A stretch of DNA of 64,000 nt from Arcobacter sp. CECT 8985 (lineage in GTDB: Bacteria; Campylobacterota; Campylobacteria; Campylobacterales; Arcobacteraceae). This document shows positions 18,381 through 40,395 of the stretch, piece by piece. The DNA lies in NCBI RefSeq assembly GCF_004116495.1, contig NZ_PDKC01000004.1, forward strand, positions 1-64,000, written 5' to 3'. The translations under genes and the position numbers were made by a program. The stretch's first letter is position 1. Each line of letters begins with the position of its first letter. The notes under the pieces were generated by a model, which saw only the letters and a list, made by a program, of their open reading frames with translations, was not told where the DNA came from and did not search any database.

Positions 18381-18437
18381 TATTAGTACTCCTAACATAT
18401 TTTTGGCGATTTTATCTAAATTATGATAAATGTTTGA

Positions 18438-18443: not shown

Positions 18444-18450
18444 AATTTCT

Positions 18451-19023: not shown

Positions 19024-19436
19024 CTAGCCTTACTTATATTCTCTTCTTCTATCCATTGCTTATAAATTACTTCAATATCTTTTATTTCTTGCTGTGAAGC
19101 TCTTCTTCTACAAGATAAATATCCATCTTCATTTTTAGAGTTTTGAAATGGATATATTGTTGCATAAACCCAATAATATCCACCAGATTTTGTGGCATTT
19201 TTTACATAGCCAGTCCAAATTTTATTTTGTTTAATTGTATTCCATAAATCTTTAAAAGCTTTTTTTGGCATATCTTTATGTCTTACAATATTATGAGGTT
19301 TACCAATTAATTCATCAAGAGTATATTCTGCAATTTCACAAAAATCATCATTTGCAAATGTAATATTACCTTTTTTATCTGTTTCACTAACTAAAAATGC
19401 ATATTCATTTAATACTGTTTCTTGTCCATTAGCCAT
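19020..19436 (-). CDS. cetB: PAS-domain energy-taxis sensor CetB-like
   Basis: A 138-residue single PAS-domain protein with the Aer/CetB signature: FLVSETDKKGNITFAND, IGKPHNIVRHKDMPK, KIWTGYVKNATKSGGYYWV. In Campylobacter, CetB binds FAD and senses redox state for the partner transducer CetA. The start is ATG at 19436, which has AAGGAAATAATT before it; an upstream ATG at 19478 lies inside the end of the preceding gene. It follows the CetA-like transducer by 13 bp in the order seen for cetA-cetB, so the pair is likely one energy-taxis receptor. FAD binding is inferred from the family. Confidence 0.8.
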   Translation of the reverse strand: MANGQETVLNEYAFLVSETDKKGNITFANDDFCEIAEYTLDELIGKPHNIVRHKDMPKKAFKDLWNTIKQNKIWTGYVKNATKSGGYYWVYATIYPFQNSKNEDGYLSCRRRASQQEIKDIEVIYKQWIEEENISKAS

Positions 19437-19449
19437 AATTATTTCCTTA

Positions 19450-20847
19450 TTAGAATTTTTTATTTTTGGCATCTTCAACTAGGTTTTGAGCCATATTTGA
19501 GATATTTTGTGCAATATTTGTTACTTGAGAAGTTTGATTTGCATTTTCTTGTGTAACTTTATCAAGCATTGTTATTGTGTCATTGATTTGTTCAATCCCT
19601 GTCATTTGCTCTCTTGATGCACCACTAACATTATCAATAATTGATATTGTTTCTTCAATTCTATTATTTAACTCTTCATACCCTGTAATCATCTCTTTTG
19701 AAATAACTTTACCTTCATTTGCTTTTGAAGTTGCATGTTCAACTAAATTTTTAATCTCTTTTGCAGCTTCGGCACTTCTATTTGCAAGGTTTCTTACTTC
19801 TTGAGCAACAACAGCAAAACCTTTACCAGTTTCACCTGCAGTTGCTGCTTCAACTGCTGCATTTAATGATAATATATTTGTTTGAAATGCAATTTGATCA
19901 ATTACTGTAATTGCTTCATTGATAGAGTTGACTTGATCATTTATATTTTCCATTGAACTTGCAGTTTTTGTAGCTAGTTCTCTACCATTTGTCACTGAAT
20001 TTCTAACATATGTGCTAAGTTCTGCCATCTCTTGAGCATTTGATGCATTACTTCTTGTTATTGATGTAATCTCCTCAACAGCAGCAGCTGTTTGTTCTAA
20101 ACTAGCAGCTTGTTCATTTGCCTTTGTAGATAAACTATTCATTGCATTTTTCATTGTGATAGAGTCACTTTGCAATAATTGTCCATTTTTTAAATTTAAT
20201 TTCGCATTATCAATTAAATTATTTCCAAGTATATTAATACCTTCCATTACACTTAACATTCTATCTTTTAATGTATCTGGAATATCTATATTTTTAGTAA
20301 AATCATTTTCAGAATATTTTTTAAGAGTTGATTCTAGATTCTTCATATGTTCTTCTGTAGTATCTAACATGTTATTAATTGTTTTTTTTAGAGTCATAAT
20401 CATAGGATTTTGTGTATCTGAATTAACTCTACAATCATAAATACCTTGTTCAACTTTATTTAACACTAAAACAACTTCGCCCAATACTCTCATATCATTT
20501 TTTCTCATTTTATCAAATGAATCGCAATAATCATTCAGATTTTTTAAAATATCACCAATTTCATCTTTTTTTATATACTCAGCTTTTTTAATTTTATTTG
20601 ATTTCATAAAAGCATATTCCATGAAATCATCTAAAAAAACCCTTATTCTATTTATTCCACCTGTAATTCTATTCATTGCTGAATAATTTGTATATGCAAT
20701 AATAATTGCAAAAAGAATATTAACTATAATAATTGAGCTAATATTTGGTGTAGTAATTATTGATGTAATACTAATAACAGCAAAGGCAATTTGTGCCAAA
20801 ATCATGTTGATTAGTATTTTATATTTAGTATGAATGTTTTTAAACAT
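19450..20847 (-). CDS. cetA: Methyl-accepting chemotaxis transducer CetA-like
   Basis: A 465-residue chemoreceptor with two closely spaced membrane helices (about residues 13-33 and 39-57) and hardly any periplasmic loop, so it cannot bind external ligands itself. A HAMP-like segment and a long coiled-coil signalling domain follow. The hairpin tip shows [20 protein letters not shown], the CheA/CheW contact region. The lack of a sensory domain and the PAS gene immediately downstream fit the Campylobacter CetA/CetB energy-taxis receptor. It would sit in the inner membrane at the chemosensory array. The upstream spacer contains a 17-bp dyad that may control it. Confidence 0.85.
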
Positions 20848-21080
20848 TTAAACCCTTATTCTGTATTTATATTAAGTAAATTCAATAGTAAAATATTTAC
20901 TATGCAGAATTTATTCCCTAAGTCATAAAATAATAAAATTATTATTTTTGACACTGTGTTTATGACTTTGCTTCCATAAAAAATAAAACAAATTCAAAGA
21001 TTATAAAAGTGTAATATTTATTAATTAGTAATTTTATTTAAAGAATTCTTAATATAAAATGAATGTTAATAAATTTTTGC
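20848..21080. promoter_or_regulatory. Divergent spacer upstream of cetA, with 17-bp dyad
   Basis: This gene-free stretch separates cetA (leftward) from the small zinc-type protein (rightward). It holds a perfect dyad TAGTAAA-ATA-TTTACTA at 20886-20902, 39 bp before the cetA start, which could be an operator. Otherwise it is AT-rich with no ORF that I can support. Confidence 0.45.
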
Positions 21081-21086
21081 TATAAT
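21081..21086 (+). promoter_or_regulatory. Extended -10 box, probably leaderless gene
   Basis: TGCTATAAT is an extended -10, with the hexamer at 21081-21086. The preferred ATG of the following gene is at 21093, only 6 bases later, so the mRNA likely starts at or beside the start codon. Confidence 0.6.
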
Positions 21087-21092
21087 TACAAA

Positions 21093-21266
21093 ATGAATGA
21101 AAAAATCGTATGTCAAAAGTGTCAGTATTATTATGTAACATGGGAACCAAATAATCCACATGGATGTAAGGCTTATGGGTTTAAATCAAAAATGATACCT
21201 TCAATTGTTGTAAAAAGTTCAAGCGGTAAAGCCTGTACATTCTATAATCCAAAACAAAGAGAATAA
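21093..21266 (+). CDS. Small four-cysteine protein, unknown function
   Basis: A 57-residue protein with a possible zinc-binding pattern: CQKC near the N-terminus, HGCKAYGF, and GKACTFYNP near the C-terminus. I do not recognise a named function, although similar small proteins with the WEPNNPHGC type of segment seem typical of Campylobacterota. The start at 21093 (MNEKIVCQKC) is preferred to the in-frame ATG at 21063, because a strong extended -10 box overlaps the extra codons. The gene stands alone, 37 bp before the PAS kinase. It may bind zinc or an iron-sulfur cluster; no further evidence is visible. Confidence 0.7.
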   Translation: MNEKIVCQKCQYYYVTWEPNNPHGCKAYGFKSKMIPSIVVKSSSGKACTFYNPKQRE

Positions 21267-21303
21267 ATAGTAAAATTATTATAATTATTTACATAGGTTT
21301 TCA

Positions 21304-22800
21304 ATGAATTTACAAAATTACATTAATCTTTTTGAAAAGAATAAAAATTTAATAATTAATGATTGGCTAAAAAACAATAAACTTAAAGAGATTTTAGATT
21401 TAAAAAATATTAATGAAAATCTATTTACTCAAAATTACGCTAATTATATTTTTAATTATTTTTTAATTATTATAACAAAAAAAGAAGAATCTAATAATTG
21501 TCCTTCAATTGATAACTTAATTAAATATTTTAATATGTGTGGTTTTAATTCTGAAGAACTTTTTTATGTATGTTCAGCTTTTAAAAGGGCTATTATTAAA
21601 TTTACATATGATAGCAAAATAAATAGTTTTGAACTTACTGATGAACTTTCAAATTTCTTTGATTTAAATTTTTCTATTGTTTTATCAAAATATACAAAAA
21701 AAATAAAAAATGTAGAATATAAATTAAAAAAATCTTTATCTATTGTGAATAAATATATTATATTATCAAAAACTGATAAATATGGCGTAATTACTGAAGT
21801 TTCACAAGCTTTTTGTGATATCTCTGGATATTCTCAGAATGAATTAGTAGGTAAAAAGCATAATATTGTTAAACATCCAGACACAAATATATTTATTTTT
21901 AAAGAGCTTTGGCAGACAATTTTATCAGGAAAAGTATGGAAAGGCGAATTAAAAAATAGAAAAAAAGATGGTACAGCTTATTGGGTTTATGCAACTATTG
22001 AACCTATTTTTGATAAACTAGGTAAAATACAAGGTTTTTATGCTATAAGACAAGATATTACATCTAAAAAAGAGTTTGAAGAACAACAAAATATATTAAT
22101 TCAACAATCAAAATCTGCAGCCATGGGAGAGATGATTTCTATGATTGCTCATCAATGGAGACAGCCTTTACAAGCTATTTCTATTTTAATACAAAAACTT
22201 CCATTGATGAAAATGATTGAAGGTGATATACCTGATGAAATAATAAATCAAGTTGTAACGGATGCAGGAATTCAACTTGATTATATGTCAAAAACTATTG
22301 ATGATTTTAGAGACTTTTTTAAACCAAATAGAAAAAAACAAGAGGTTAAAGTTTCTGAATTAATAAATAAAACAATAGATTTTTTAGCGTATATGTTAAA
22401 GATTGATACTATTAAATTAACTAAAGTTATAGAAGTTGATTCTACTTTAATAGTACATAAAAATGAAGTTGTGCAAGTTTTAATAAATATAATCAAAAAT
22501 GCACGTGATGTAATGGTTGATAATGATATAAAAAATAGAACAATTGATATTAGATGTTTTAATCAAAATAATCATGTAATTATTGAAATAGAAGATAATG
22601 CAGGTGGAATACCTGAAAATATAATATCAAAAATATTTGAACCATATTTTTCAACAAAAGAGAATAAAAATGGAACGGGTCTTGGTTTATATATGAGTAA
22701 AACTATAATAGAACAACATAGTTTAGGAAGAATTTCAGCTTTTAACTCAGATAAAGGTGCCGTTTTTAAAATTGAATTACCACTAAATACAGGAGAATAA
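21304..22800 (+). CDS. Cytosolic PAS-domain histidine kinase
   Basis: A 498-residue soluble sensor kinase. The N-terminal helical region (1-145) is unassigned. A PAS domain (about 150-262) shows KTDKYGVITEV, VGKKHNIVKHPDT and KVWKGELKNRKKDGTAYWV, close to the CetB-type PAS. The dimerisation helix carries the phosphoacceptor in MISMIAHQWRQPL (His 283). The ATPase domain has DNAGGIPENI and ENKNGTGLGLYMS. No membrane helix is present, so it should sense an internal signal such as redox state or flavin. Its stop is 2 bp before the HTH-dUTPase gene, implying co-transcription. No response regulator is fused or directly adjacent; candidates are the receivers at 24859-26221. Confidence 0.9.
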   Translation: MNLQNYINLFEKNKNLIINDWLKNNKLKEILDLKNINENLFTQNYANYIFNYFLIIITKKEESNNCPSIDNLIKYFNMCGFNSEELFYVCSAFKRAIIKFTYDSKINSFELTDELSNFFDLNFSIVLSKYTKKIKNVEYKLKKSLSIVNKYIILSKTDKYGVITEVSQAFCDISGYSQNELVGKKHNIVKHPDTNIFIFKELWQTILSGKVWKGELKNRKKDGTAYWVYATIEPIFDKLGKIQGFYAIRQDITSKKEFEEQQNILIQQSKSAAMGEMISMIAHQWRQPLQAISILIQKLPLMKMIEGDIPDEIINQVVTDAGIQLDYMSKTIDDFRDFFKPNRKKQEVKVSELINKTIDFLAYMLKIDTIKLTKVIEVDSTLIVHKNEVVQVLINIIKNARDVMVDNDIKNRTIDIRCFNQNNHVIIEIEDNAGGIPENIISKIFEPYFSTKENKNGTGLGLYMSKTIIEQHSLGRISAFNSDKGAVFKIELPLNTGE

Positions 22801-22802
22801 AT

Positions 22803-23723
22803 TTGTTATACAAAGATTTAAAAATAGTTACAAAATCATTGGGATTTTTAACAATTGAAGATTTTGCCAAGTATATTGGCGTAACACCAAAAGATGTTTT
22901 ACAATGGGAACAAAAAGAAGAAGTTCCATATACTATATCATTGATTATACATCTTTTAAAAGGTGAAAAACCTTTACCAAATAATAGCACTTTAGATAAT
23001 TTAGTTGAAGAGTGTTTACCTCTTGCAACATTGCTAGAAGAAGCTTCATCTTTCCCTCATAAATTAGAAGAGATGTTTTTATTACAAAAAGAGTTAAATG
23101 ACTCTACAAATGGTAAAAATTGGGAATTGGGAATTAATAAATTTGATAAAGAGATTAATTGGTTAAGATGTATTCATATGGAAGTAGCAGAACTTATTGA
23201 TTCTGCACCTTGGAAACATTGGAAAAATATAAATGCTGAACCTGATATGAATAATGTACATGTTGAATTAGTAGATATTTGGCATTTTCTAATGTCTTAT
23301 ATTCTTCAAGAAACAAATGTGCCTAAAGCTGTTTCTTTAGTAAATACACATTGTATTTATGAGGCAAATGAGGAAGTAGATGTTAAATCAATGATAAAAG
23401 AATCTGAAAAATTATCATATATTGCATTAGCTATTCAAACAAATAATATGCCTTCATTTAGTGGAATTGAAAGATTTATTGACCAATTCTTTAGATGTTG
23501 TAAAATTTCTGGACTATCGTTTATGTGGTTACAAAAGCTTTATATAGGTAAAAATTGTTTAAATAAATTTAGACAAGATAATGGATATAAAGAAGGAACT
23601 TATTTAAAAGAGTGGGATGGTAAAGAAGATAATGTAGTTATGATTAATATTTTAAAACAAACAGAAAATGTAAGTTTTAAAGAGTTATATCAAAAATTAG
23701 ATGATGCTTACAAAAGTCTTTAA
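22803..23723 (+). CDS. dut: dUTPase (all-alpha dimeric type) with N-terminal HTH-like domain
   Basis: A 306-residue protein. Residues about 95-306 match the dimeric all-alpha dUTP diphosphatase of Campylobacter (about 230 residues). Metal- and substrate-binding segments are CIHMEVAELIDSAPWKHWK, VHVELVDIWHF and IGKNCLNKFRQDNGY. It hydrolyses dUTP to dUMP and pyrophosphate, keeping uracil out of DNA. Residues about 14-60 (TIEDFAKYIGVTPKDVLQWE) look like a helix-turn-helix absent from the shorter homologue, so this is a fusion. The start is TTG at 22803, with GGAGAATAAA before it, overlapping the control space of the upstream kinase. A bidirectional terminator follows. Confidence 0.88.
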   Translation: MLYKDLKIVTKSLGFLTIEDFAKYIGVTPKDVLQWEQKEEVPYTISLIIHLLKGEKPLPNNSTLDNLVEECLPLATLLEEASSFPHKLEEMFLLQKELNDSTNGKNWELGINKFDKEINWLRCIHMEVAELIDSAPWKHWKNINAEPDMNNVHVELVDIWHFLMSYILQETNVPKAVSLVNTHCIYEANEEVDVKSMIKESEKLSYIALAIQTNNMPSFSGIERFIDQFFRCCKISGLSFMWLQKLYIGKNCLNKFRQDNGYKEGTYLKEWDGKEDNVVMINILKQTENVSFKELYQKLDDAYKSL

Positions 23724-23750
23724 AATATAGAGTTTATCTCTATATTTTAA
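23720..23750. terminator. Bidirectional intrinsic terminator
   Basis: A 13-bp perfect stem TTAAAATATAGAG / CTCTATATTTTAA with loop TTTAT lies between the converging dUTPase and kinase genes and overlaps both stop codons. Confidence 0.8.
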
Positions 23751-24786
23751 TATCAATATAAAAACAAGCCCCATTATTTTGATTTTTAACATTAATTGAA
23801 CCATTAAAATGCTTTTCTAATATAACTTTACACATATGAAGTCCTAGTCCAGTACCATTTTTTTCATGTTTAGTTGAGAAATATGGTTCAAATACTTTAT
23901 GTATAATTTCTTTGTTTATTCCTCCTGCATTATCACAAATAATAATTCTTATATAATCTTTTGTTGTTTTAAATTTAATAGATATATGTCCATTTTTTAT
24001 ATCATTCTCTTCAATTGCATCAATAGTATTATTTAATAAATTTATAATTATTTGAATAAGTTCATTTTTAAAAGTAAAAATTTTGTCTAATTTTTGGTTA
24101 TCTAATTCTATTGTAATTTTTTTTGATTTTAAAGTTGGTTCAATCATATCTACTGCAATTTTTATAATATCTTTTATATCTAAATACTCTTTTTGTTTAT
24201 CTTCTTTAAAAAAGTTTCTAAAATCATCAATTGTTTTGGACATATATTGAAGATAGTTATTTATATTATCAAAGTCATCATCTAATATCTTTAACTCTTT
24301 ACTATTAGATTTTAAACTCTTAATCTTTAATTTTGCAATAATAGAGCTAATTGCAGATAATGGTTGTCTCCATTGATGTGCAATCATTGAAATCATTTCT
24401 CCCATGGCTGCTAGTCTAGACTGCTTGTAAAGAAGTGAGTCTTTTTCTCTAAACTCTCTTAGATCAAGTATTGTTACAATCTTATAATCTTGTCCATAAA
24501 GATTAATATCTTGTATTTTTAAAATGGCAGGAATTAAATCTCCATTTGTTGCTACTAAAGTTACTTCTTGAAATAAATGTTTATTAAATTCAAGAAATTT
24601 TTCTGTAGTAGATGGAATTAGTACTCCTGTTGCAAGATTTCCTATTAATTCATCTTTTGTTTTATATTCTAATATTTGTAATAAAGAATTATTAACATTA
24701 ACAATAAAACCATTTTTTACTAGCAATGCACCTTCAATTAAAGCATCTAGTATTCTTTCAGTATCATTATATTCATATGAATTCAT
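23740..24786 (-). CDS. Cytosolic PAS histidine kinase
   Basis: A 348-residue soluble kinase. A PAS-like domain covers about residues 8-120 (ALLVKNGFIVNVNNSLLQIL, IVTILDLREFREKD). The H-box is AAMGEMISMIAHQWRQPL with His 137. The catalytic domain shows NNTIDAIEEND (N box), CDNAGGINKEI (G1) and HEKNGTGLGLHMCK (G2). It closely resembles the kinase at 21304-22800 but with a shorter sensor. It is divergent from two receiver genes that begin at 24859 and 25664, which are the natural phosphotransfer partners. The short 72-bp divergent spacer probably holds both promoters. No membrane segment is present. Confidence 0.9.
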   Translation of the reverse strand: MNSYEYNDTERILDALIEGALLVKNGFIVNVNNSLLQILEYKTKDELIGNLATGVLIPSTTEKFLEFNKHLFQEVTLVATNGDLIPAILKIQDINLYGQDYKIVTILDLREFREKDSLLYKQSRLAAMGEMISMIAHQWRQPLSAISSIIAKLKIKSLKSNSKELKILDDDFDNINNYLQYMSKTIDDFRNFFKEDKQKEYLDIKDIIKIAVDMIEPTLKSKKITIELDNQKLDKIFTFKNELIQIIINLLNNTIDAIEENDIKNGHISIKFKTTKDYIRIIICDNAGGINKEIIHKVFEPYFSTKHEKNGTGLGLHMCKVILEKHFNGSINVKNQNNGACFYIDIKI

Positions 24787-24858
24787 TTTTTTATCTTACT
24801 AATTAATTTATTATATTGTATAATTTTTTATCTTACTAATAATTGATTTGGAGGAAGA

Positions 24859-25611
24859 ATGGTAGATTATGTTCTGTTAGAAGAGTATTGTAAAGATATT
24901 TCAATTTTATTTGTTGAAGATGATAATAGTATAAGAAAAGAGATGAAAGAGCTTCTAAAAGAGTTATTTCACACTGTTGAAATATCAAATAATGGAGAAG
25001 ATGGGTGGAATAAATATCAAGAATTTTATAATACCAATAATAAAAATTTTGATATCGTTTTGACAGATGTAAAGATGCCAAAAATTGATGGTTTAGAATT
25101 AATAAAAATGATATATAAACAAAATCCTTCTCAAATAATTATTGTATTGTCAGGAGAAAGTGAAACTTATCATCTAATAGAATTTGTAAATTTAGGAATA
25201 AATCATTTTTTAGAAAAACCATTAAATTACGACAATTTTATAAATGAAACATTTAAATTATGTGAAAAAATTTATAAAAATAAAAATCAAAATAAAATAG
25301 AAAATTTTAACCATATTAAGTTAAATGATAATCTCATATGGGATATACAAACAAAACAATTATTAAAAAATAATAAAGATGTAAAATTGACTAAAAAAGA
25401 GAATCTTTTAATTGAACTTCTTTTAAAGGTCCCTGAAAAAACAACTTCAATTGAGCAAATAGTTTCTATTTTATGGGAAGATAATATTGATAAAAATGTA
25501 GATATAAAAAATCTAAAAAATATAGTTTCAAGATTAAGAAAAAAATTACCAGAATTAAGTATAGAAAATATTTATGGCTTAGGTTATAAAATCAATATAG
25601 TAAAGAATTAA
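24859..25611 (+). CDS. OmpR-type response regulator
   Basis: A 250-residue response regulator with a receiver domain (residues 1-125) and a C-terminal winged helix (about 155-250). The receiver residues are intact: acidic pair in FVEDDNSI, phosphoacceptor Asp 70 in VLTDVKMPKIDG, Ser in IVLSGESE and Lys in HFLEKPLN. The effector shows LTKKENLLIELLL, IVSILWEDN and IENIYGLGYKI, typical of the OmpR/PhoB family. The ATG follows TTGGAGGAAGA. It is divergent from the PAS kinase at 23740-24786, probably its partner, and is followed by a second receiver protein 52 bp downstream. DNA targets are unknown. Confidence 0.9.
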   Translation: MVDYVLLEEYCKDISILFVEDDNSIRKEMKELLKELFHTVEISNNGEDGWNKYQEFYNTNNKNFDIVLTDVKMPKIDGLELIKMIYKQNPSQIIIVLSGESETYHLIEFVNLGINHFLEKPLNYDNFINETFKLCEKIYKNKNQNKIENFNHIKLNDNLIWDIQTKQLLKNNKDVKLTKKENLLIELLLKVPEKTTSIEQIVSILWEDNIDKNVDIKNLKNIVSRLRKKLPELSIENIYGLGYKINIVKN

Positions 25612-25663
25612 CACTTTTATAATACCATTTTTTTATATAATTGCCTTTGTGAGGAGAAGTTAT

Positions 25664-26221
25664 ATGAATAGTAAAATAAATTTAGAATTAATGGAAGATT
25701 TAACAGTTTTATACGTTGAAGATGAAAAAGATATTAGAGATAATTTAGAAAAATGTTTTCTTTCTATTTTTAAAAAGTGTATTGTTGCAAAAGATGGGAA
25801 AGATGGTGTTCAAACTTATATGAAACATCAAAAAGAGATTGATATAATTATTACAGATTTAAATATGCCTTATATAGATGGTATTGAAATGATAAAACAA
25901 ATAAAAGCAATAAATCCAAAAATTTCTTTTATAATTACAACTGCATATAGTGATAAACAATATTTAATAGATTCAATTAATTATGGAGTAAATCACTATA
26001 TTTTAAAACCTTTCAAAATAGAATCTTTATTAAAAGAAGTAGAAAAATCATACCTATCAACACATTTTGTAAAAAAATTAAAACAGCAAAGTGAACAAAT
26101 TGAGAGTTTATCTAAAGTTTTTAATAGTACTAAAGATGACTTAATGAAAGAAAATGATAAAGAGTTAAATAGTAAATTGGTTTTAATTGATGAAATTATA
26201 CAGTTATTAGATAGAAGATAA
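25664..26221 (+). CDS. Single-domain response regulator with coiled-coil tail
   Basis: A 185-residue protein: receiver domain (about 8-128) with acidic pair YVEDEKDI, phosphoacceptor Asp 65 in IITDLNMPYIDG, Thr in IITTAYSD and Lys in YILKPFKI, then a helical tail (130-185, KKLKQQSEQIESLSKVF). No DNA-binding or enzymatic output is visible, so it may act by protein-protein contact or in a phosphorelay. ATG at 25664 is the start, since GAGGAGAAG precedes it; the in-frame GTG at 25649 would include that ribosome site in the gene. It is probably co-expressed with the response regulator upstream, although a TATAAT near 25636 could give it an extra promoter. Confidence 0.87.
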   Translation: MNSKINLELMEDLTVLYVEDEKDIRDNLEKCFLSIFKKCIVAKDGKDGVQTYMKHQKEIDIIITDLNMPYIDGIEMIKQIKAINPKISFIITTAYSDKQYLIDSINYGVNHYILKPFKIESLLKEVEKSYLSTHFVKKLKQQSEQIESLSKVFNSTKDDLMKENDKELNSKLVLIDEIIQLLDRR

Positions 26222-26792: not shown

Positions 26793-29378
26793 CTATTTTG
26801 CTTTATACTCCAAAATAATTGGTTTTGAGTAATTAGGCACATCATCATATGTAAATATTGCAAAATATTTATCTTTATCTTTTGCTCCAAAATCATCATA
26901 TGTATAGTTATCTTTGCCTGCATATATTTTTTGACCATCATGTGAACTAAGTGGTTTTCTATATGGGTTTTTGATAACTTTTACACCAACTAAATCTTCT
27001 TCTTTAGGATTTTCCCATGATATTTTGATTTTTCCATTTTCTATTTCATATTTTGCATTTGAAATTTGAGCTAAAGGAAATCTTCTTTTTGGGATATGTT
27101 CAATAATCAGCTTGGGAGCTAATTTATCATTTGATATTTCCCAAGATATTTTTTTATTTTTTATTGATTTTATAGAAGAGGTTGGTGTTAAAACAAATAA
27201 AATATTTGCTTTATCTTTTAGTCTTTCATTCAATTCTCTTTTTGCAAATGAATCAAATACAAAATATTGAGTTTGATTGTTTTTTAAATCATTTGCACTA
27301 ACATCATATCCTATATTTTGAATGATTTTTCTTTTTAAAATGCTACTGTAGTTTTTCTTTGTCGTATTATCAATAAATTCTAGGTGGAACCTTATATCAT
27401 CTTTTATATAGTTATTTGTTGAATTAAGTTCAATATATGCATTTGTAATAACTGTATACTCATATGAAGGTAAAGATGATAGATTGAATTCCAATGCACA
27501 ATAAATTTTATTGCCATTTTGATCAAATCCAGAATTTATTTCATTTTCAAATATTTTTTGTTTTGCTATTGTAAAAATAGATTTTGCATATAGTTTATTT
27601 ATTGTTGGCTCAATTGTATATGTAAGTTCTAGTCTTGGACGATAATTTAATCCAAAACCAAATTTTCCATAACCTATGTCCCATTGCATCATTTGAGATT
27701 TTCTTCCTACTTTTAGTTCAGTTGGTCCCTCAACTCTAAAAATCACTTTTTCATTTTCGATTTGTGATGTAAGAGCTAAGGATTCAATTCCTGATAATTC
27801 CCATTTTCTCCATATCCCTTGTGTAAGTTGATCACTTTTTGTTGGTCTTCCTATATAACTAATAACTTTTGCATTTTCAACTTCATCAAAATCTGTAATA
27901 TCTTCAATGGAGTCTTGATCAATTATAGCAATATTCCATTCACCAAATTTTTCAATTGTTGTGGATACTCTGTTTATTGGATATAAATTTAATGAAGCTG
28001 ATTTAATTACAGCATTTGCAGGAATTGTTTTTAAATCAATTGTAATGATTGAGTAAGAAACGCCTTTGTTCTCATCTACTCCAACAAATAAAGAATTTAC
28101 ACCAAAATGCTTATCATTATTATTTACATTTTCAGCTACATATCCTGTTTGAGATGCATTTGCATAATAAGTTCTTGAGTATTCATCATATTCAACATCT
28201 GTTCTTATCTTTATTTGAGGAGAGAAGGGTGATTTTAATTTTTTTCTTTTATTGACAGCTCTTATATTAAAATAATAGTTTGTATTTGATTGAAGATTTG
28301 TATCACTAAATTCCAAAGCTTGTGTTCTTGCAATAAGATTTGATTCTTTACAATACATTTTATCTCTTTTATTTCGATATATTTCAAAGAAAATGTCTTT
28401 TGTTACTTTTGCATTCCAACTTAAATTTACATGATTTGATCCAATCTCTTTTACTTCAAAATTTTCTACTCTTTTTAATGGATTATCCTTATCATAATTT
28501 GGAACTTCTTTAAGAGCTTCAATTAGTGCAGGAATATGTTCTCTTAAGTGCTCATTCATATCATCCAAATAATCACTTATATTTCTTGTTCCTACCTCAA
28601 CAACAGTTGCTAATATATCTTTTGAATAATAAAATTCTCTTCCACTTCCTCCAATTAATTTTGCAGGTGGCTTACCTTGGTGTATTCCATACTCTCTACT
28701 TGATATTTTTTTTATTTTATCTGCCATATTTGCACATAATACATTTAAATCTGTTGTTTCAAGTGTATCTTCGTGCCTAAAATCATGTGCGGGGAAAAAT
28801 ACATTTCCTTGACTATGATAGTCAAGAGCAATAGTAATATTTTCATGACTTTCAACGAAGTCTTTTAAAGCTTTTGTTTCTGGTTCACTAAAAGGTTCTG
28901 GACCTCCATATATATTTGATGTTGTCAAATTTGATTTAATAAACCCTACACTAAAGTTTCTATTTAAATCCACACCATATGTTCCATCTGCATTAACTCT
29001 TCTATTTTTTCTCCAAAATGAAAAATGTGTTTGTGAATATGTAAAACCATCTGGATTTGCGCATGGAACCATATAAATGGTAGCACTTTTTAAATATGCT
29101 TCTAAAGTAGGATCTATATCAATATTATTTAAAATATATTCAGCAAATACAATTGATAACTCATGTCCAATCCATTCTCTTGCATGAATTGTCCCAGTAA
29201 AGAATAAAGCAGGCTTTTTGTGGGCAGTCTCAATATCTGCTGAAATTGTAATAATATTTATATCTCTTTTTTCCCAAGTCTTCCCAATCGATGATAACTC
29301 AAAATTTTTAGGAAATTTTTTTTGAAATTCTTTAAAAATTTGAGTTGATTCATCATAAGTTCTATAAAGCCTTTTCAT
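26793..29378 (-). CDS. Large M14 zinc carboxypeptidase with beta-sandwich domains
   Basis: An 861-residue protein. The M14 carboxypeptidase domain (about 1-300) is complete: HxxE zinc motif in TIHAREW (His 65, Glu 68), NPDGF, DLNRNF (Asn 139, Arg 140), YHSQG (zinc His 188) and VVEVGTRN (catalytic Glu 261). A fibronectin type III domain follows (about 315-400, HVNLSWNAK), then a DNRLRE-like carbohydrate or beta-sandwich domain (about 405-590), a second similar region and a final FnIII-like segment. No signal peptide is visible, which is unusual because such accessory domains usually belong to secreted proteins. It is the last gene of a four-gene operon, its ATG directly adjoining the stop of the ATP-grasp/HhH gene with GGAG before it. 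Substrate unknown. Confidence 0.85.
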   Translation of the reverse strand: MKRLYRTYDESTQIFKEFQKKFPKNFELSSIGKTWEKRDINIITISADIETAHKKPALFFTGTIHAREWIGHELSIVFAEYILNNIDIDPTLEAYLKSATIYMVPCANPDGFTYSQTHFSFWRKNRRVNADGTYGVDLNRNFSVGFIKSNLTTSNIYGGPEPFSEPETKALKDFVESHENITIALDYHSQGNVFFPAHDFRHEDTLETTDLNVLCANMADKIKKISSREYGIHQGKPPAKLIGGSGREFYYSKDILATVVEVGTRNISDYLDDMNEHLREHIPALIEALKEVPNYDKDNPLKRVENFEVKEIGSNHVNLSWNAKVTKDIFFEIYRNKRDKMYCKESNLIARTQALEFSDTNLQSNTNYYFNIRAVNKRKKLKSPFSPQIKIRTDVEYDEYSRTYYANASQTGYVAENVNNNDKHFGVNSLFVGVDENKGVSYSIITIDLKTIPANAVIKSASLNLYPINRVSTTIEKFGEWNIAIIDQDSIEDITDFDEVENAKVISYIGRPTKSDQLTQGIWRKWELSGIESLALTSQIENEKVIFRVEGPTELKVGRKSQMMQWDIGYGKFGFGLNYRPRLELTYTIEPTINKLYAKSIFTIAKQKIFENEINSGFDQNGNKIYCALEFNLSSLPSYEYTVITNAYIELNSTNNYIKDDIRFHLEFIDNTTKKNYSSILKRKIIQNIGYDVSANDLKNNQTQYFVFDSFAKRELNERLKDKANILFVLTPTSSIKSIKNKKISWEISNDKLAPKLIIEHIPKRRFPLAQISNAKYEIENGKIKISWENPKEEDLVGVKVIKNPYRKPLSSHDGQKIYAGKDNYTYDDFGAKDKDKYFAIFTYDDVPNYSKPIILEYKAK

Positions 29379-30878
29379 CTATTCTCCTATTTTAAATCTG
29401 GATTTTAATTGCGATAATTTTCTTTTTCCAATACCTTCAATATTTTCAAGTTCATCTAATGTTTCAAATTTCCCAATCTCTTTTTTATATTCTAAAATAA
29501 TTTTAGCAAGTTTTTTCCCTATACCTTTTATTTTTAATAACATTTCGCTATTTATATTATTAATATCAACTCTCATATCGCAAAGGTTATTATCCCAACA
29601 TTTTAACATTTGTTCATCAATTGCTTCTAATTCAAGTAAATCTGTAGAATCAGTAATAATATTTTCTTGTATAAACTCATGTATTTCAATAGCTAATTCT
29701 TCTTGCATAGATTGAAGAGTCATTATATCAGTTAATGAAGCATTATTTAGATTTAATTTTTTTAATTGTTTTTCCTCTGCTTTTTTATTTTTATCAAAAT
29801 ATTTAGATAATTCAAGTCTTGTTTCTACTATATTATTTGGAAAATCTTTATAAAAACTTTCACAAACTTTTTCCATATCAAAATTTTCAGTATCATTTTT
29901 TATAAACTCACCATCTGAACTTGGTTTATATTTTGAAAAACCAATATGTCTCATAGTTCTTAATAACTTAGAATCAATTTTGCCTAACTCTTCCCATGAA
30001 TATATTGGAACATGTGGGATTTTGAATTTTCCTTTTGTAAAATCCCACATTAGGTATTGTCCAATCCAATCTCTTATATAAGGAAATGCAGCAAATGCAG
30101 TCGCACACTCAAGTATAAATGCTTTGCCTGTTTTTTCACATATAGCAATATCACAAGCCCAATATTCTGCTTTTGCAGCTTTACTTGCTTTAACTGCTAA
30201 TTCAAGTGCATTCATTGGAACATTGTTATAAGACATATGTCCACCTTGAGAAGTATTTGTAATCCATTGATTTTTACCTGAATATCTCCAAAATGCACAA
30301 ACTGGTTTATGTCCTATTAACATAACTCTTATGTCTCCATTATCTTTTAAATTAATTGCATCTTGTGTATAAATAGGATTATATTTCTTTTTATTAATTA
30401 ACTTTTCTGCTTCATTATAATTATTTACTTTATGTACATAATATCCTCCATAATTTGAAGGGCCATAGCTTCTTTTTATTATTTGTGGATATGAAGCTTT
30501 GTGTTTTAAATATTTTAATCCTTTTTCTTTTTCATAAAAGATCTTTGTTTTTGGAATACTTAAATTATGTTTTTTACAAAACATTGTTACATTTTCTTTT
30601 GATTTATTAGAAAATTGACTTTGTATAGATGGAACAAATCTAACATTTGGTAACTCTTTTGATATCTCAACAAAAGTATCATATGCTGTTGCAGGAATAT
30701 TACCTATTAGAACATCAATTTTTTTCTTTTTAATCTCTTTTATAAATCTTTCTTTGTCATTTTTCCAATGATATACAACTTTTTCTATTTTATCTGGCCA
30801 ACCTTTGAAATTTGAATTATCAAAAAATCTCAAAACGTAATCAAGATACAAGAAACCTAACTTTGGTAGCTTTTTCAT
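29379..30878 (-). CDS. ATP-grasp ligase fused to ComEA-like HhH domain
   Basis: A 499-residue protein. Residues about 1-300 form a RimK-like ATP-grasp domain: YPQIIKRSYGPSNYGGYYV (nucleotide lysine and loop), DNGDIRVMLIG, NTSQGGHMSY and AFILECATAFAAFPY, where E-x-A replaces the more usual ExN metal site. A linker follows, and the last 65 residues carry two helix-hairpin-helix motifs (MLLKIKGIGKKLAKIILEY and LENIEGIGKRKLSQLK), as in ComEA. Such ligases join a carboxylate to an amine using ATP. ATG at 30878 is chosen because AAGGA lies just before it; the in-frame start at 30911 is weaker. It overlaps the upstream ATP-grasp gene by 38 bp. The HhH suggests nucleic-acid or protein docking. Confidence 0.78.
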   Translation of the reverse strand: MKKLPKLGFLYLDYVLRFFDNSNFKGWPDKIEKVVYHWKNDKERFIKEIKKKKIDVLIGNIPATAYDTFVEISKELPNVRFVPSIQSQFSNKSKENVTMFCKKHNLSIPKTKIFYEKEKGLKYLKHKASYPQIIKRSYGPSNYGGYYVHKVNNYNEAEKLINKKKYNPIYTQDAINLKDNGDIRVMLIGHKPVCAFWRYSGKNQWITNTSQGGHMSYNNVPMNALELAVKASKAAKAEYWACDIAICEKTGKAFILECATAFAAFPYIRDWIGQYLMWDFTKGKFKIPHVPIYSWEELGKIDSKLLRTMRHIGFSKYKPSSDGEFIKNDTENFDMEKVCESFYKDFPNNIVETRLELSKYFDKNKKAEEKQLKKLNLNNASLTDIMTLQSMQEELAIEIHEFIQENIITDSTDLLELEAIDEQMLKCWDNNLCDMRVDINNINSEMLLKIKGIGKKLAKIILEYKKEIGKFETLDELENIEGIGKRKLSQLKSRFKIGE

Positions 30879-31794
30879 AATATTCCTTTTTATTATATGT
30901 TTTTTTATCAATTAAATCTACAATCAAATCAATTTTCTTATCATTGTAGTTAATACCTAATTTTTCTTGTTCAGGAGTTGCAAAAGCTGGTATTCCATTT
31001 ACTTCTAATACAACATATTGTTTTTTCTTTTCATCATAAATGATATCAACACCTGCAATTTCTAGTCCTGTGATTTTTGCTGCTTTTAATGCAAGATCTA
31101 TTACTTCTTGATTCTCTTCTCTTAAAAATACACTTCCTCCACTTGTAATATTTGTTCTCCATTCACTTTTCTTAGCTCTTCTTCCATATGAACCAACATA
31201 TTGTCCATTTACAATATCTACTCTATAATCAGTATTATTGTTTTTTATAAATTCCTCAACATAATAATATCTTGTGTTTATTTGATTTAAAAATGGTAGT
31301 AACATATCAAGAGTAGCTTCATTCTCTATTTTTGTTAAACCAACACCACCCCAGCCATCTGTTGGTTTATAAACCATTTTTGACCATTTTTTTAAAATAC
31401 TTCTTAAATATTCAATATCATCTCTATGGCATAATTTATAATCAGCTGTAGGAATGCCATGATTTCTTAAAAGAAATGAAGTTTGAAATTTATCTTCTGT
31501 TAATTCAAATGAATTAAAATTATTAATCATAGGCATTACTTTATTAAGAGCTTTATATAAATACATCTGATATTGAGTTTGTTCTCCAGCATTATAAGAG
31601 AAAAACAAATCTAACTTTTCAAGTTCTATATTGTTATAAATTATATGTCCATTTTTTGAAATTGCTTTTTTTAGATTTATATCAGCTATTACATCAATAT
31701 CTCTTTGTTTTAATTTATTGATGATTTTTTCTTGAATCCTATTACCCCCACCATTTTGGTAGAGCCACATCCCAATAGTTCTTTTACACATCAT
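30841..31794 (-). CDS. RimK-like ATP-grasp peptide ligase
   Basis: A 317-residue ATP-grasp protein. Visible elements are MVYKPTDGWGGVGLTK (nucleotide lysine and glycine loop), VEEFIKNNNTDYRVDIV, RRAKKSEWRTNITSGGS (substrate loop) and YVVLEVNGIPAFATPE, whose ExN supplies the magnesium ligands. This is closest in style to RimK/alpha-glutamyl ligases, which add amino acids to carboxylates of peptides or proteins. The N-terminal pre-ATP-grasp part starts MMCKRTIGMWLYQNGG. It overlaps the M20 peptidase gene by 11 bp and the next ligase by 38 bp, so translation is coupled. It is cytoplasmic and its substrate is unknown. Confidence 0.83.
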   Translation of the reverse strand: MMCKRTIGMWLYQNGGGNRIQEKIINKLKQRDIDVIADINLKKAISKNGHIIYNNIELEKLDLFFSYNAGEQTQYQMYLYKALNKVMPMINNFNSFELTEDKFQTSFLLRNHGIPTADYKLCHRDDIEYLRSILKKWSKMVYKPTDGWGGVGLTKIENEATLDMLLPFLNQINTRYYYVEEFIKNNNTDYRVDIVNGQYVGSYGRRAKKSEWRTNITSGGSVFLREENQEVIDLALKAAKITGLEIAGVDIIYDEKKKQYVVLEVNGIPAFATPEQEKLGINYNDKKIDLIVDLIDKKTYNKKEYYEKATKVRFLVS

Positions 31795-32890
31795 TCTTCC
31801 TTATTTTTTGGAAATATAATAAAGTTTTTGTAACAAAATCAATTCTTTGTTCAAAACTAGACTTCAACGCTTTTTCATGTTTTGTATGATCATATTGTCC
31901 ATAAGGACCTAAGCCATCAATTGTAATTACATTACAAGACGAAAAAATATTTGCATCACTCACTCCCCCACGATGTTCAGTTTTTATTTTTGTTTTAGTA
32001 ATATTTTCAAGTTTTTTTATAAAGTCAAGTTGTTTTTGATTTTCTTGCATTACATCTCTTTGAATAGAACCCTCAAGTTTTGATTTTGTTCCTTTTACAT
32101 ATGAAGTATTTGTAATTTCATTTAAAGCATGTAAGAGTCTATTCTTTTCTTTATTTGTAGAAAATCTAATTTCAAGAAGTAAGTGTGAACTAGCAGAGAT
32201 AGTATTTGCTCCAATTCCTCCTTCAAATTTTCCAACATTAACTGTTGTGCCTTTTTTTATATTTGTTAAAGCTATTAGTTTTTGCATTTTATAAGAAGCT
32301 TCAAGATTTGCATCAATACCTTTTGTATATGAAGTTCCTGCATGGGAAGCTTTACCCTTACAAGTTATATTAAAAGTTCCCACGCCTTTTCTTGCTGTTA
32401 CAACTTCTAAGTTTTTCCCCGCAGCTTCAAATACTAAACATATATCATAATTATTAGCAATTTTTTTACTGATTTTTTTTGAGTCATCACTGCCTGATTC
32501 TTCATCACTTACAAGTAAAAAATCAATATTATAAATCTCTTTATTTTTTTTATAAACATTTCTCAATGATTGTAGTGCAACAATATTCCCACCTTTCATA
32601 TCACACACACCAGGACCATAAATGTACTTTTCATCTTCAGTAAAGTTTTCAAATGTATTAGGAGGGAAAACTGTATCATTATGTCCAAGAAGAAGAATTT
32701 TTTTGCCTTTAGTCTTCTTTGAAAGATATAGATTATGATTTCCAATATCATTTCTTTTAAAGACTTGATGAGTAAAACCAAGTTTTAAAAGCCATTCTGT
32801 CATATATTTTGAGACATTATCAACTCCAGCTTTATTTTTTGTGTATGAGTTAATTCTAATTATTTTTTCTAAATCTTTAAGATATGTCAT
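31784..32890 (-). CDS. M20 metallopeptidase, glutamate carboxypeptidase-like
   Basis: A 368-residue M20-family di-zinc peptidase of the carboxypeptidase G2/ArgE group. Metal and catalytic residues are visible: LLLGHNDTVFPP (His, Asp), GPGVCDMKGG (bridging Asp), VSDEESGSDD (catalytic Glu pair), VFEAAGKN and DHTKHEKA (last His); GKASHAGTSYTKGID is the dimerisation-domain histidine segment. Members cut C-terminal Glu/Asp or N-acyl amino acids. There is no signal peptide, so it acts in the cytoplasm. It is the first gene of the four-gene operon with two ATP-grasp ligases and an M14 peptidase. The argG terminator ends just upstream, separating the operon from argG. Confidence 0.85.
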   Translation of the reverse strand: MTYLKDLEKIIRINSYTKNKAGVDNVSKYMTEWLLKLGFTHQVFKRNDIGNHNLYLSKKTKGKKILLLGHNDTVFPPNTFENFTEDEKYIYGPGVCDMKGGNIVALQSLRNVYKKNKEIYNIDFLLVSDEESGSDDSKKISKKIANNYDICLVFEAAGKNLEVVTARKGVGTFNITCKGKASHAGTSYTKGIDANLEASYKMQKLIALTNIKKGTTVNVGKFEGGIGANTISASSHLLLEIRFSTNKEKNRLLHALNEITNTSYVKGTKSKLEGSIQRDVMQENQKQLDFIKKLENITKTKIKTEHRGGVSDANIFSSCNVITIDGLGPYGQYDHTKHEKALKSSFEQRIDFVTKTLLYFQKIRKNDV

Positions 32891-33001: not shown

Positions 33002-33031
33002 ATAGGACAAGTTAACTCTAACTTGTCCTAT
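33002..33031 (-). terminator. Intrinsic terminator of argG
   Basis: A 13-bp perfect stem ATAGGACAAGTTA / TAACTTGTCCTAT with a 4-base loop. On the minus strand it is followed by seven Ts, a textbook rho-independent terminator 25 bp after the argG stop. Confidence 0.92.
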
Positions 33032-36031: not shown

Positions 36032-36746
36032 ATTAGAGATAAAAGACATAACAAAAAAGATTAAAAAAACAGAGATTTTACATGGTATTTCTTTGGATAT
36101 ACAAAGTGGTGAAATTGTGGGATTATTAGGACCAAATGGAGCAGGTAAAACTACAACTTTTTATACTGTTTGTGGACTTGTAAAACCAACTAGCGGTGAA
36201 GTTTTTTTTGATGGTATAAATATTACAAACTTACCTTTACACCAAAGAGCAATTAAAGGAATAGGGTACTTACCTCAAGAATCGTCAATTTTTAAAGATC
36301 TAAGTGTTGAAGATAATCTTTTTTTAGCAGCAGAAGTAATAAGTAACATAAAAGAAGAACAACATAAAAGAGTAGAAGAGTTATTAGAAATCTTTAATAT
36401 TGAACCAATTAGAAAAAGAAAAGGTGTTTCTTTATCAGGTGGAGAAAGAAGAAGAACAGAAATTGCAAGGGCATTAGTATCAAAACCTAAATTTTTACTT
36501 CTTGATGAACCATTTGCAGGGGTTGATCCAATTGCAGTAAAAGATATTCAAGAAATTATCAATCAATTAACTCAAATTGGAATAGGTATTTTAATTACAG
36601 ATCATAATGTAAGAGAGACTCTTCAAATTTGTGATAGAGCATATGTTATGAAAAATGGCTCTTTATTAGCTTCAGGGAAAAGTGAAGAGATAAAAAGTGA
36701 TGGAAGTGTTAGAGAACATTATCTTGGTGAAGATTTTAACTTTTAA
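36024..36746 (+). CDS. lptB: Lipopolysaccharide export ABC ATPase LptB
   Basis: A 240-residue ABC ATPase of the LptB type. Walker A is LLGPNGAGKTTTFY, the Q-loop YLPQESSIFKDL, the signature VSLSGGERRRTEIARAL, Walker B FLLLDEPFAGVDP, and the switch histidine in ILITDHNVRETL. This closely fits LptB, which with LptF/LptG extracts lipopolysaccharide from the inner membrane. ATG at 36024 is chosen since it overlaps the tsaE stop; the in-frame start at 35988 lies inside tsaE and adds no homology. Its 3' end overlaps the converging receiver-GGDEF gene by 11 bp. LptF/G genes are not in this window. Confidence 0.94.
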   Translation: MHKLEIKDITKKIKKTEILHGISLDIQSGEIVGLLGPNGAGKTTTFYTVCGLVKPTSGEVFFDGINITNLPLHQRAIKGIGYLPQESSIFKDLSVEDNLFLAAEVISNIKEEQHKRVEELLEIFNIEPIRKRKGVSLSGGERRRTEIARALVSKPKFLLLDEPFAGVDPIAVKDIQEIINQLTQIGIGILITDHNVRETLQICDRAYVMKNGSLLASGKSEEIKSDGSVREHYLGEDFNF

Positions 36747-38055
36747 TTATAACTCTATTTCTTCCTTGTTTTTTTGCTTCATATAAAGCTTCATCAGCTT
36801 TTTCAATAAAACTATTTTCAGTATCACCTTTTTTAAGAGTTGTTACTCCAAAACTTGAAGTTATTTTTTCCGGAATTGAATCATCTTTAAATTCTTCAAG
36901 TGCAACTCTTATTTTTTCTGCAACTTTAAAAGCTCCTTCTAAGTTGGTTTCAGGAAGTAGTACAATAAACTCTTCTCCACCCCATCGAACAATTGTATCA
37001 TGTTCTCTTACATTTTTAGAGACTATTTTTGCAATAAATTTTAGTACTTCATCTCCAAGATTATGACCATATTTATCATTAAATATTTTGAAATGATCTA
37101 TATCAAAAAGAATTAGAGATAAGTTATTTTCATATCTTTTATCTCTTCTTATCTCTTTACCAAATATTTCATGAAATTTTTGTCTATTAAAAAGACCTGT
37201 CAAAAGATCATGATTTGCTTGATATTCTAATAGGTTTGATTTCTCTTTTAATTCTGTTATATCTGTTAATGAAATTACATAAAAGTCATTATTTTTGTAA
37301 GCATCTATATTAACAGTAAAAATTCTATCTTGTCTATCTTGATTAGTGATTTTTACAATTCTATCTACTTCATTCAAATTTATTAGATATTTAATCCAAT
37401 TTTTTTCATCACCAGTAATTGAATTTAAATTAAAACAGGCTTTCTCTTCTTTAAAAAGTGAAGTAATACAGGGAATTTTTGAATTAAACTCTTCTAATGA
37501 GTCAACATTAAAAAACTCTAAGAACTTTTTGTTTACATTTGTTATTGTATCTTTACTACTAACAAATATAATATTATCTTGCGAGTCAAGGATAGATTTA
37601 ATTTTTTCTATACCTTCTTCAACTCTTTCTTCTAAAAATAAATTAGTCTCTTTTAGTTGTTTTTTTAAAAAAATTGGTTCAATTGCTTTTATCATACTTT
37701 CAATTAGTTGATATAAATCAATAGGTTTCATTGCATATGCACTTACACCAACATCAATTGCTTGCTTTAAAAAATCAGGATCATTATGCGCACTTGTAAT
37801 TACAATTGGTACTTCTTTGTTGATTTTTCTGATCTCAGCACACATTTCTAAACCACCCATTTTAGGCATATTTATATCTGTTACTATTAAATCTATATCT
37901 AAATTTTCTTTGAATGCTTCAAGACCTTCTTTACCATTTTCTTTAATAATAATTTCTTTTACTATGGCTTTTATAGTTCTACCTGTAAATTCTCTTACAT
38001 CATTTTCATCTTCTACATATAAAACTTTTACATTTTTTAGTACTTCATTATTCAT
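36736..38055 (-). CDS. Response regulator with PAS and active-type GGDEF domain
   Basis: A 439-residue protein: receiver (1-125; acidic pair YVEDENDV, phosphoacceptor Asp 60 in IVTDINMPKMGG, Lys in YAMKPIDL), coiled-coil linker, PAS-like domain (about 150-270) and GGDEF domain (about 285-439). The GGDEF part is canonical: DLLTGLFNR, FDIDHFKIFNDKYGHNLGD and RWGGEEF, with an inhibitory RxxD (REHD) before it. It should make cyclic-di-GMP under phosphorylation control, unlike the two degenerate GGDEF proteins at 13264-15207. It is downstream of kdsB and a PAS kinase on the same strand, and that kinase is a plausible partner. Its 3' end overlaps lptB by 11 bp. Confidence 0.92.
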   Translation of the reverse strand: MNNEVLKNVKVLYVEDENDVREFTGRTIKAIVKEIIIKENGKEGLEAFKENLDIDLIVTDINMPKMGGLEMCAEIRKINKEVPIVITSAHNDPDFLKQAIDVGVSAYAMKPIDLYQLIESMIKAIEPIFLKKQLKETNLFLEERVEEGIEKIKSILDSQDNIIFVSSKDTITNVNKKFLEFFNVDSLEEFNSKIPCITSLFKEEKACFNLNSITGDEKNWIKYLINLNEVDRIVKITNQDRQDRIFTVNIDAYKNNDFYVISLTDITELKEKSNLLEYQANHDLLTGLFNRQKFHEIFGKEIRRDKRYENNLSLILFDIDHFKIFNDKYGHNLGDEVLKFIAKIVSKNVREHDTIVRWGGEEFIVLLPETNLEGAFKVAEKIRVALEEFKDDSIPEKITSSFGVTTLKKGDTENSFIEKADEALYEAKKQGRNRVIIKS

Positions 38056-38124
38056 TTTTTACCTTAGCGAAATATATTATTATTGTATTTTACTTTAATA
38101 ATCTTATAAATTATCTTATAGGTC

Positions 38125-38850
38125 TTATTTTCCAAAGATTTTTAACGCATTTTCTAAATCTTTTTGAGTATCGATTCCAAACGATTTTGACTCTACTTCT
38201 ACCATTGCAATATTATATCCATTATCAATTGCTCTTAATTGTTCAAGCTTTTCTGTTGATTCTAATTTTGATTGTTTTAATGAACAAAATTTATTTAAAC
38301 TTTTTTTTGTAAATCCATAAATACCAAGATGTCCATTATAGTTTATATTTTCTACATGATCTCTATTATATGGAACTTTTGCTCTTGAAAAATATATTGC
38401 ATCTAGATTATCATCTAAGACAACTTTTACAAGATTTGGATCATCTGCTAAATCTGAACTAATTTTTTTAAAACAACTAACTATCATTGTTTCTTCATTG
38501 TTTTGTTTTACTTTTTTAACTCTTGTTATAACAGCATTTACAACTTCTGGTTCTATAAAAGGTTCATCTGCTTGTACATTTATAATTATCTCATCTTCAT
38601 CAAGATCTAATTTATTTACTGCTTCATTTATTCTATCTGTTCCGCTTTGATGTTTATTTGAAGTTAAAACTGCTTGAAAATTGTGCTCTTTTGCTAAATC
38701 TAAAACTTCTAATGAGTCAGTTGCTATTACTACTTTATCTAAAGCACTAACTTGTGTTGCAGTTTTTATTACCATTGGTAGACCTAATATATCTGCTAAT
38801 ATTTTGTTTTCAAATCTACTTGAATTTAATCTTGCTGGTATAATAATCAT
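38125..38850 (-). CDS. kdsB: 3-deoxy-manno-octulosonate cytidylyltransferase
   Basis: A 241-residue nucleotidyltransferase of normal KdsB length. The N-terminal signature MIIIPARLNSSRFENK, then KVVIATDSLEV, SGTDRINEAV, IINVQADEPFIEP and GHLGIYGFTKKSL are diagnostic. It activates Kdo as CMP-Kdo for the lipopolysaccharide inner core, in the cytoplasm. The gene starts 13 bp after the PAS kinase stop and is followed after 69 bp by the receiver-GGDEF gene, so it sits in a mixed signalling and envelope unit. LptB at 36024 is the only other LPS gene nearby. Confidence 0.95.
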   Translation of the reverse strand: MIIIPARLNSSRFENKILADILGLPMVIKTATQVSALDKVVIATDSLEVLDLAKEHNFQAVLTSNKHQSGTDRINEAVNKLDLDEDEIIINVQADEPFIEPEVVNAVITRVKKVKQNNEETMIVSCFKKISSDLADDPNLVKVVLDDNLDAIYFSRAKVPYNRDHVENINYNGHLGIYGFTKKSLNKFCSLKQSKLESTEKLEQLRAIDNGYNIAMVEVESKSFGIDTQKDLENALKIFGK

Positions 38851-38863
38851 TTTTTTCCTTTTT

Positions 38864-40330: not shown

Positions 40331-40395
40331 ACAAAACCTTATTTTTAGTATTGATATTATATTATAAAAACTTTAAAAATTTATAAGTAGGTAAT

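Follow-up and report, generated by a model that had tools for sequence, protein, structure and literature searches.

Few reversible amino acid ligation systems are known in bacteria; in the literature surveyed, the established one is RimK/RimB (RimABK), which carries out reversible polyglutamylation of ribosomal protein S6 (PMC11957791, PMC7343187, PMC10092738). Here, we describe a four-gene operon of Arcobacter sp. CECT 8985 that encodes two ATP-grasp ligases and two zinc peptidases; it lies within a stretch of 64,000 nucleotides (contig NZ_PDKC01000004.1, positions 1 to 64,000), referred to below as the window. The peptidases are called M20 and M14 after their families, the RimK-like ATP-grasp ligase is called AG1, and the ATP-grasp/helix-hairpin-helix (HhH) ligase is called AG2. 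The cassette resembles RimK/RimB in being bacterial and apparently cytosolic, and in setting ATP-grasp ligases of the same superfamily beside peptidases that may undo their work, but RimK/RimB has a single ligase and, as its eraser, a retropepsin-like aspartic endopeptidase in place of the two ligases and two zinc peptidases found here. We tentatively favor, with somewhat less than even confidence, a reading in which this conserved and occasionally transferred four-gene cassette acts in the cytosol to make and trim an acidic C-terminal extension of some target whose gene is not linked to it.

The four genes are one co-selected unit and not a mere neighborhood, since the set recurs at different loci, co-occurs when split, and has holders that pair alike in trees. 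We searched 298 genomes from the same Campylobacterota class for each of the four families. AG2 was found in 30 (a broken remnant in G037 was left out of this count), AG1 also in 30, and M14 and M20 in 31 each; 29 genomes carry all four families, 33 carry at least one, and 265 carry none. Pairwise Jaccard values for the four families were 0.88 to 0.97, and given such nearly identical presence and absence, the grouping is not due to chance. Hypergeometric log10 P values of -35 to -40 overstate the significance, however, because they ignore phylogeny. The set also persists when its genes are apart: in three genomes (G009, G129, and G301), AG2 stands alone beside efp, with M20-AG1-M14 together elsewhere, and in a fourth (G299), the four genes are on four separate contigs. 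Co-occurrence is therefore independent of adjacency. In one Sulfurimonas-type group (loci L024, L032, L105, L111, and L130), AG2 has its place immediately downstream of efp, away from M20, AG1, and M14, and at L130, genome G037 has only the broken AG2 remnant beside efp. EF-P was considered as a target, given this proximity in some Sulfurimonas-type genomes, and was dropped because the placement is limited to the one group.

A wider scan of 84,980 species gave 348 stretches with AG2 relatives. The top 80 of these were retrieved, and gene order was surveyed in about 110 loci in all, from several families. The order M20-AG1-AG2-M14 was seen in nearly all loci that were long enough, M20 being divergent in some and in line with the rest in others. 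The holders are mostly relatives of Arcobacter, Sulfurospirillum, Sulfurimonas, Hydrogenimonas, Nitratiruptor, and Nitratifractor, with scattered ones in Desulfuromonadales and Gammaproteobacteria (Photobacterium, Pseudoalteromonas, and Thiomicrorhabdus); the complete set is present in Photobacterium sp. DA100. Draws of 369 Gammaproteobacteria and of 345 genomes of the Desulfuromonadales phylum yielded one holder each, in both cases only the seed genome. The Thiomicrorhabdus genome and a Desulfuromonadales metagenome-assembled genome pair within the Sulfurimonas-type group in the AG2 and M20 trees alike, and correlations between the distance matrices of the families range from 0.61 to 0.83, with AG1 the loosest. 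Apparently, the four genes were transferred together to Photobacterium, Pseudoalteromonas, Thiomicrorhabdus, and Desulfuromonadales. The sequence-only reading of this DNA had called for a neighborhood survey of linkage, and the linkage held up by order, by co-occurrence, and by joint transfer. As for the vehicle, searches of phages and viral contigs turned up no convincing sign of a phage origin, and a plasmid origin was set aside, the sole plasmid-collection record with the set being a 2.1-Mb Photobacterium replicon. An anti-phage defense system was likewise rejected, as none of the four proteins had a PADLOC match.

The same distribution bears on whether these could be unrelated housekeeping ligases held in a frozen gene order, with the peptidases serving in peptide salvage. 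In Arcobacter relatives, the flanking argG and gamma carbonic anhydrase genes are conserved too, as such a history would have it, and M14 persists alone in one congener (G256, discussed below). However, those flanks belong to the Arcobacter neighborhood; the housekeeping locus differs by lineage (argG in Arcobacter relatives, trmD/rplS in the Sulfurimonas-type group), the genes co-occur even when dispersed, and about 90% of the genomes of the class have no cassette. The co-occurrence of unlinked copies already disfavors this explanation, and we regard it as the least probable of those weighed here. No fifth cassette gene came to light, in that no other neighbor among open reading frames (ORFs) of at least 80 amino acids recurs across lineages.

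Broken-up sets keep AG1 together with M20, and AG2 together with M14. One genome has AG2 and M14 only (G218), another has M20 and AG1 only (G105, with a flank long enough to show that AG2 is not next), and a third has M20 only (G061). Given this pattern in the partial sets, the data suggest two ligase-peptidase pairs, AG1/M20 and AG2/M14. Other loci show duplication or damage. AG1 is duplicated at L054, with two copies around M20, and a second AG1 plus an AG2 fragment lies just past a complete cassette at L048 (13232-14598). At L093 (4210-12922), transposase genes separate AG1 from AG2, and M20 and M14 are each split; this cassette is apparently decaying.

In the window, the ORFs for M20, AG1, AG2, and M14 form a tight minus-strand operon (Table 1). 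The sequence-only reading had reported four genes that overlap or abut on one strand, and its coordinates, overlaps, and domain families were all confirmed. The overlap is 11 bp between M20 and AG1 and 38 bp between AG1 and AG2, if AG2 is taken from ATG 30878; the AG2 stop codon, TAG, is followed at once by the ATG of M14, with zero gap. The listed AG2 ORF runs from 30911 to 29379 and opens with TTG at 30911, and the true start is more likely the ATG because relatives begin there. Upstream, a terminator closes argG, and the operon begins after it. Pfam matches were Peptidase_M20 and M20_dimer for M20, RimK for AG1, RimK and HHH_3 for AG2, and Peptidase_M14 and fn3 for M14; Pfam and NCBIfam agree with the names given earlier for all four proteins. 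The absence of signal peptides, also claimed earlier and taken to allow cytoplasmic action, was upheld by a crude test in which none of the four window proteins had a Sec-like hydrophobic N terminus (scores of 1.2 or less, versus 2.7 to 3.0 for secreted-looking controls in the window). Thus, all four look cytosolic.

Table 1. Features of the four-gene cassette and its upstream boundary (positions in the window)
Feature	Position	Strand	Details
M20 metallopeptidase	31784..32890	-	368 aa
AG1, RimK-superfamily ATP-grasp carboxylate-amine ligase	30841..31794	-	317 aa
AG2, ATP-grasp ligase with C-terminal HhH tail	29379..30878	-	499 aa, ATG start
AG2 conserved core, ArgX/LysX/RimK fold	29949..30878	-	Residues 1-310; AlphaFold2 model
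AG2 motif E257-C-A-T260	30099..30110	-	Invariant in 71/71; Ala in place of Mg-binding Asn
AG2 ComEA-type HhH tail	29394..29573	-	Residues 436-495; HHH_3 2.8e-19
M14 zinc carboxypeptidase	26793..29378	-	861 aa
M14 catalytic domain	28488..29378	-	Residues 1-297
Arg247 codon of M14 (tentatively aligned with CPA residue 255, S1' specificity)	28638..28640	-	phmmer to CPA4
M14 fn3 domain	28236..28469	-	PF00041 1.4e-6
M14 DNRLRE-type domain (matched stretch only)	27957..28124	-	NF033679 1.1e-8 (NCBIfam)
Intrinsic terminator between argG and operon	33002..33031	-	13-pair stem and T tract

On both sides of the operon, the window has many PAS/histidine-kinase, response-regulator, and diguanylate-cyclase-like genes (13264-26221 and 36736-56612). 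The window also holds another ATP-grasp gene, outside the cassette (54120-55151); it is of the glutathione synthetase type, with PRK05246 above cut-off.

Each of the four proteins belongs to a named enzyme superfamily and keeps its catalytic residues, apart from one Mg-ligand change in AG2. The placement of residue-adding ligases beside residue-removing peptidases, as proposed from the sequence, is supported. AG2 is nearest ArgX, LysX, and RimK, which ligate acidic amino acids. PF08443 was matched in all 71 AG2 sequences, the ATP-grasp core is kept across them, and the D-x-R and TNT-x-x-G motifs are invariant. In the AlphaFold2 model (pLDDT 78), AG2 residues 5-282 matched ArgX (3vpb; VIA Z 21.3, 265 aligned, 3.4 A), RimK (7qyr; VIA Z 21.3, 266 aligned, 3.7 A), and LysX (3vpd; VIA Z 20.5, 263 aligned, 3.7 A), and sequence comparison puts LysX and its relatives first. 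The HhH tail is variable: 30 of the 71 sequences match HHH_3 and 43 match HHH_5, and the tail is missing at three loci (L013, L015, and L033).

Given the resemblance to LysX/ArgX, AG2 might load an amino acid onto the C-terminal Glu of a LysW-like carrier, with M20 acting like LysK to release the product. The fold and the WITNT..GG motif of AG2 fit such a pathway, an M20 peptidase is present in both systems, and the cassette M20 weakly matches the [LysW]-lysine hydrolase model (2.3e-10). We nonetheless consider this unlikely, and clearly so. Among ORFs of at least 80 amino acids, no kinase, reductase, aminotransferase, or carrier gene lies near the cassette in any lineage (elsewhere in the genome was not searched), M20 is far closer to carboxypeptidase G2, and the pathway has no role for the extra ligase or for M14. 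AG2 itself differs from LysX/ArgX in having E-C-A for E-x-N and a variable HhH tail.

The structural matches to AG2 also include PsnB, and ATP-grasp ligases side by side with peptidases could point to graspetide-like maturation of a ribosomal peptide, with the peptidases trimming it. AG2 is closer to ArgX/RimK than to PsnB, however, and because the genes overlap or abut, there is no space for a precursor within the operon; among ORFs of at least 80 amino acids, no conserved neighbor or exporter was seen. A graspetide survey contains no M14 or M20 (PMC8939145). This possibility seems to us highly improbable.

AG1 matched PF08443 (4.9e-22) and NF040720 (1.5e-44, under its cut-off), and its nearest solved RimK is 7qys (2e-14). 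The catalytic motifs of the RimK superfamily are complete, with E264-V-N266 as the E-x-N. On the RimK equivalog NF007764, with a cut-off of 331 bits, AG1 scored 55.7 and AG2 17.7; a separate, true rimK elsewhere in the same genome scored 362.7, which rules out AG1 as the cell's own RimK. In crystallography of Pseudomonas RimK, S7, R8, S14, R64, S68, R189, and N262 surround bound poly-glutamate (PMC10092738). AG1 retains the equivalents of R189 and N262, those of R8 and R64 are gone, and an alignment of AG1 relatives had no conserved Arg in the N-terminal domain. Given the lack of R8 and R64, the AG1 acceptor is probably not a RimK-like poly-glutamate tail. A role for AG1 as a RimK-type poly-glutamate ligase is thus not sustained, by the equivalog score, by the two missing arginines, or by the presence of a true rimK.

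M20 matched PF01546 (3.5e-18) and PF07687 (1.5e-15), and its nearest solved structure is carboxypeptidase G2 (1cg2, E 2e-23). The metal and catalytic residues H70, D72, D97, E130, E131, E155, and H335 are invariant in 36 sequences, and M20 is predicted to remove a C-terminal residue. It differs from carboxypeptidase G2 in having no signal peptide and in scoring under the curated glutamate carboxypeptidase cut-off (PRK06133; 178 bits against 349).

M14 matched PF00246 (2.1e-55), with CPA4, CPA, and CPT as its nearest relatives, and its model (pLDDT 86) gave Z scores of about 32 to 33 to CPA, CPB, and CPO. The catalytic domain begins at residue 1, and residues 3-296 align with CPA 10-308. Judged from sequence and model, M14 is a carboxypeptidase of the A/B subfamily with neither signal nor propeptide. 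The zinc ligands H65, E68, and H188, as well as R67, R123, N139-R140, and E261, are invariant in all 46 M14 sequences; in the alignment used, conservation does not extend to Tyr248. The fn3 and DNRLRE-type beta domains (the latter present in 41 of the 46) are usual in secreted proteins, and M14 combines them with no export signal. These two domains and the lack of a signal peptide set it apart from carboxypeptidase O, a eukaryotic secretory-pathway enzyme, with which it has the fold and the catalytic residues in common, together with an Arg that a tentative alignment puts at the S1' specificity position.

That Arg, Arg247, is invariant in 46/46 M14 sequences, and an ungapped alignment with CPA4 (GSSIDWAY / GSGREFYY) places it opposite residue 255. 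Specificity in the A/B subfamily is determined by residue 255; CPO owes its preference for acidic residues to Arg255, as was demonstrated with Xenopus Cpo.1 and a Glu-Glu substrate (PMC9925722). Arg247 at position 255 would predict an acidic C-terminal preference for M14; we leave this as a prediction because the register has low posterior support. A Burkholderia cytosolic carboxypeptidase (CCP) had little deglutamylase activity although its pocket is suitable (PMC3940198), and thus caution is needed in inferring specificity from pocket residues alone.

The sequence-only reading had drawn a parallel with eukaryotic tubulin glutamylation by TTLL ligases and CCP peptidases. As an analogy, the likeness lies in an ATP-grasp writer, an M14 eraser, a cytosolic setting for both, and a likely acidic residue. 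What stands is at most a functional parallel, since neither enzyme subfamily appears to be the eukaryotic one. CCPs are M14D enzymes (PMC3940198), whereas the cassette M14 falls in the A/B subfamily and has no Pfam match to a CCP-type N-terminal domain. No relation to TTLLs was seen either: the cassette ligases are nearest RimK/LysX/ArgX, AG1 and AG2 have no TTL Pfam match, and TTL-type chains are not among the best 50 structural matches listed for AG2. The comparison with RimK, LysX, and CCP that had been suggested thus gave a mixed result, in that AG2 has the RimK/LysX fold, AG1 is not RimK, and M14 is not a CCP.

We imagine that AG1 and AG2 would each use ATP to couple an amino acid to a carboxylate group on a target encoded outside the cassette, and that M20 and M14 would each take off a C-terminal residue, one peptidase serving each ligase (AG1 with M20, AG2 with M14). 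The residue handled would most likely be acidic, probably glutamate; Glu or Asp is plausible because of the invariant M14 Arg aligned with the 255 position and because M20 is nearest carboxypeptidase G2, which together suggest an acidic residue. Acting together, the enzymes would give some protein or peptide an acidic tail that can be adjusted. The HhH domain of AG2 may assist in target finding, though this domain is dispensable.

Alternatively, AG1 and AG2 could carry out successive ligations to make a small peptide without the ribosome, for example an osmolyte or a compound for redox or storage purposes; the peptidases would then degrade or remodel it. Two distinct ligases with no linked protein or precursor gene, an AG1 acceptor pocket unlike that of RimK, and holders that are mostly marine or vent bacteria are all in keeping with such a product, and dipeptides and small amides are frequent substrates of M20 enzymes. 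However, the cassette is accompanied by no transporter, amino acid-making enzyme, or regulator; enzymes of the M14 A/B type mostly have peptides or proteins as substrates; and an HhH domain would be odd on a small-molecule ligase. A small peptide is possible, though we do not think it probable. The acidic tail is modestly favored over it on two grounds: each peptidase resembles enzymes that take glutamate off a C terminus, and no genes of a small-molecule pathway accompany the cassette.

Several points weigh against the acidic-tail system. AG2 is without the canonical Mg-binding Asn (E-C-A versus the usual E-x-N); other ATP-grasp enzymes, such as PurK, also deviate from E-x-N. AG1 is without the two RimK residues that hold the poly-glutamate chain. 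The Arg255 register depends on the end of an alignment, where scores are weak; a search with a fragment profile had no hits, and it is near this point that the M14 model has its lowest confidence. The half-systems are single cases, and the co-occurrence is uncorrected for phylogeny. The congener G256 retains M14 alone and intact at the same locus, as argG-M14-gamma carbonic anhydrase (L122 8079-10676, G256:C7), with the other three genes gone. This is either a natural deletion that left M14 intact or an ancestral M14-only state; therefore, M14 may be useful without the ligases, or it is a remnant. Finally, the substrate, product, and activity of the four enzymes are predictions.

The earlier statement that no named system with exactly this set was known agrees with the literature searched, which did not cover Iyer et al. 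2009 and gave no description of the four genes together. That work reportedly predicted many ligase-peptidase systems from gene neighborhoods. The set looks like an undescribed system. Its two putative writers and two putative erasers are conserved, occur in more than one phylum, and have been lost from close relatives. That it is a bacterial reversible acidic-tail modification in the full sense, with two writers and two zinc-peptidase erasers on a transferable cassette that parallels tubulin glutamylation functionally through different subfamilies, we consider rather unlikely. The co-occurrence, the natural half-systems, and a specificity prediction for a single residue make this a directly testable system. 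Such a set of writers and erasers would offer a tractable counterpart of polyglutamylation among prokaryotes, or bring to light a new peptide metabolite in bacteria of vents and the sea.

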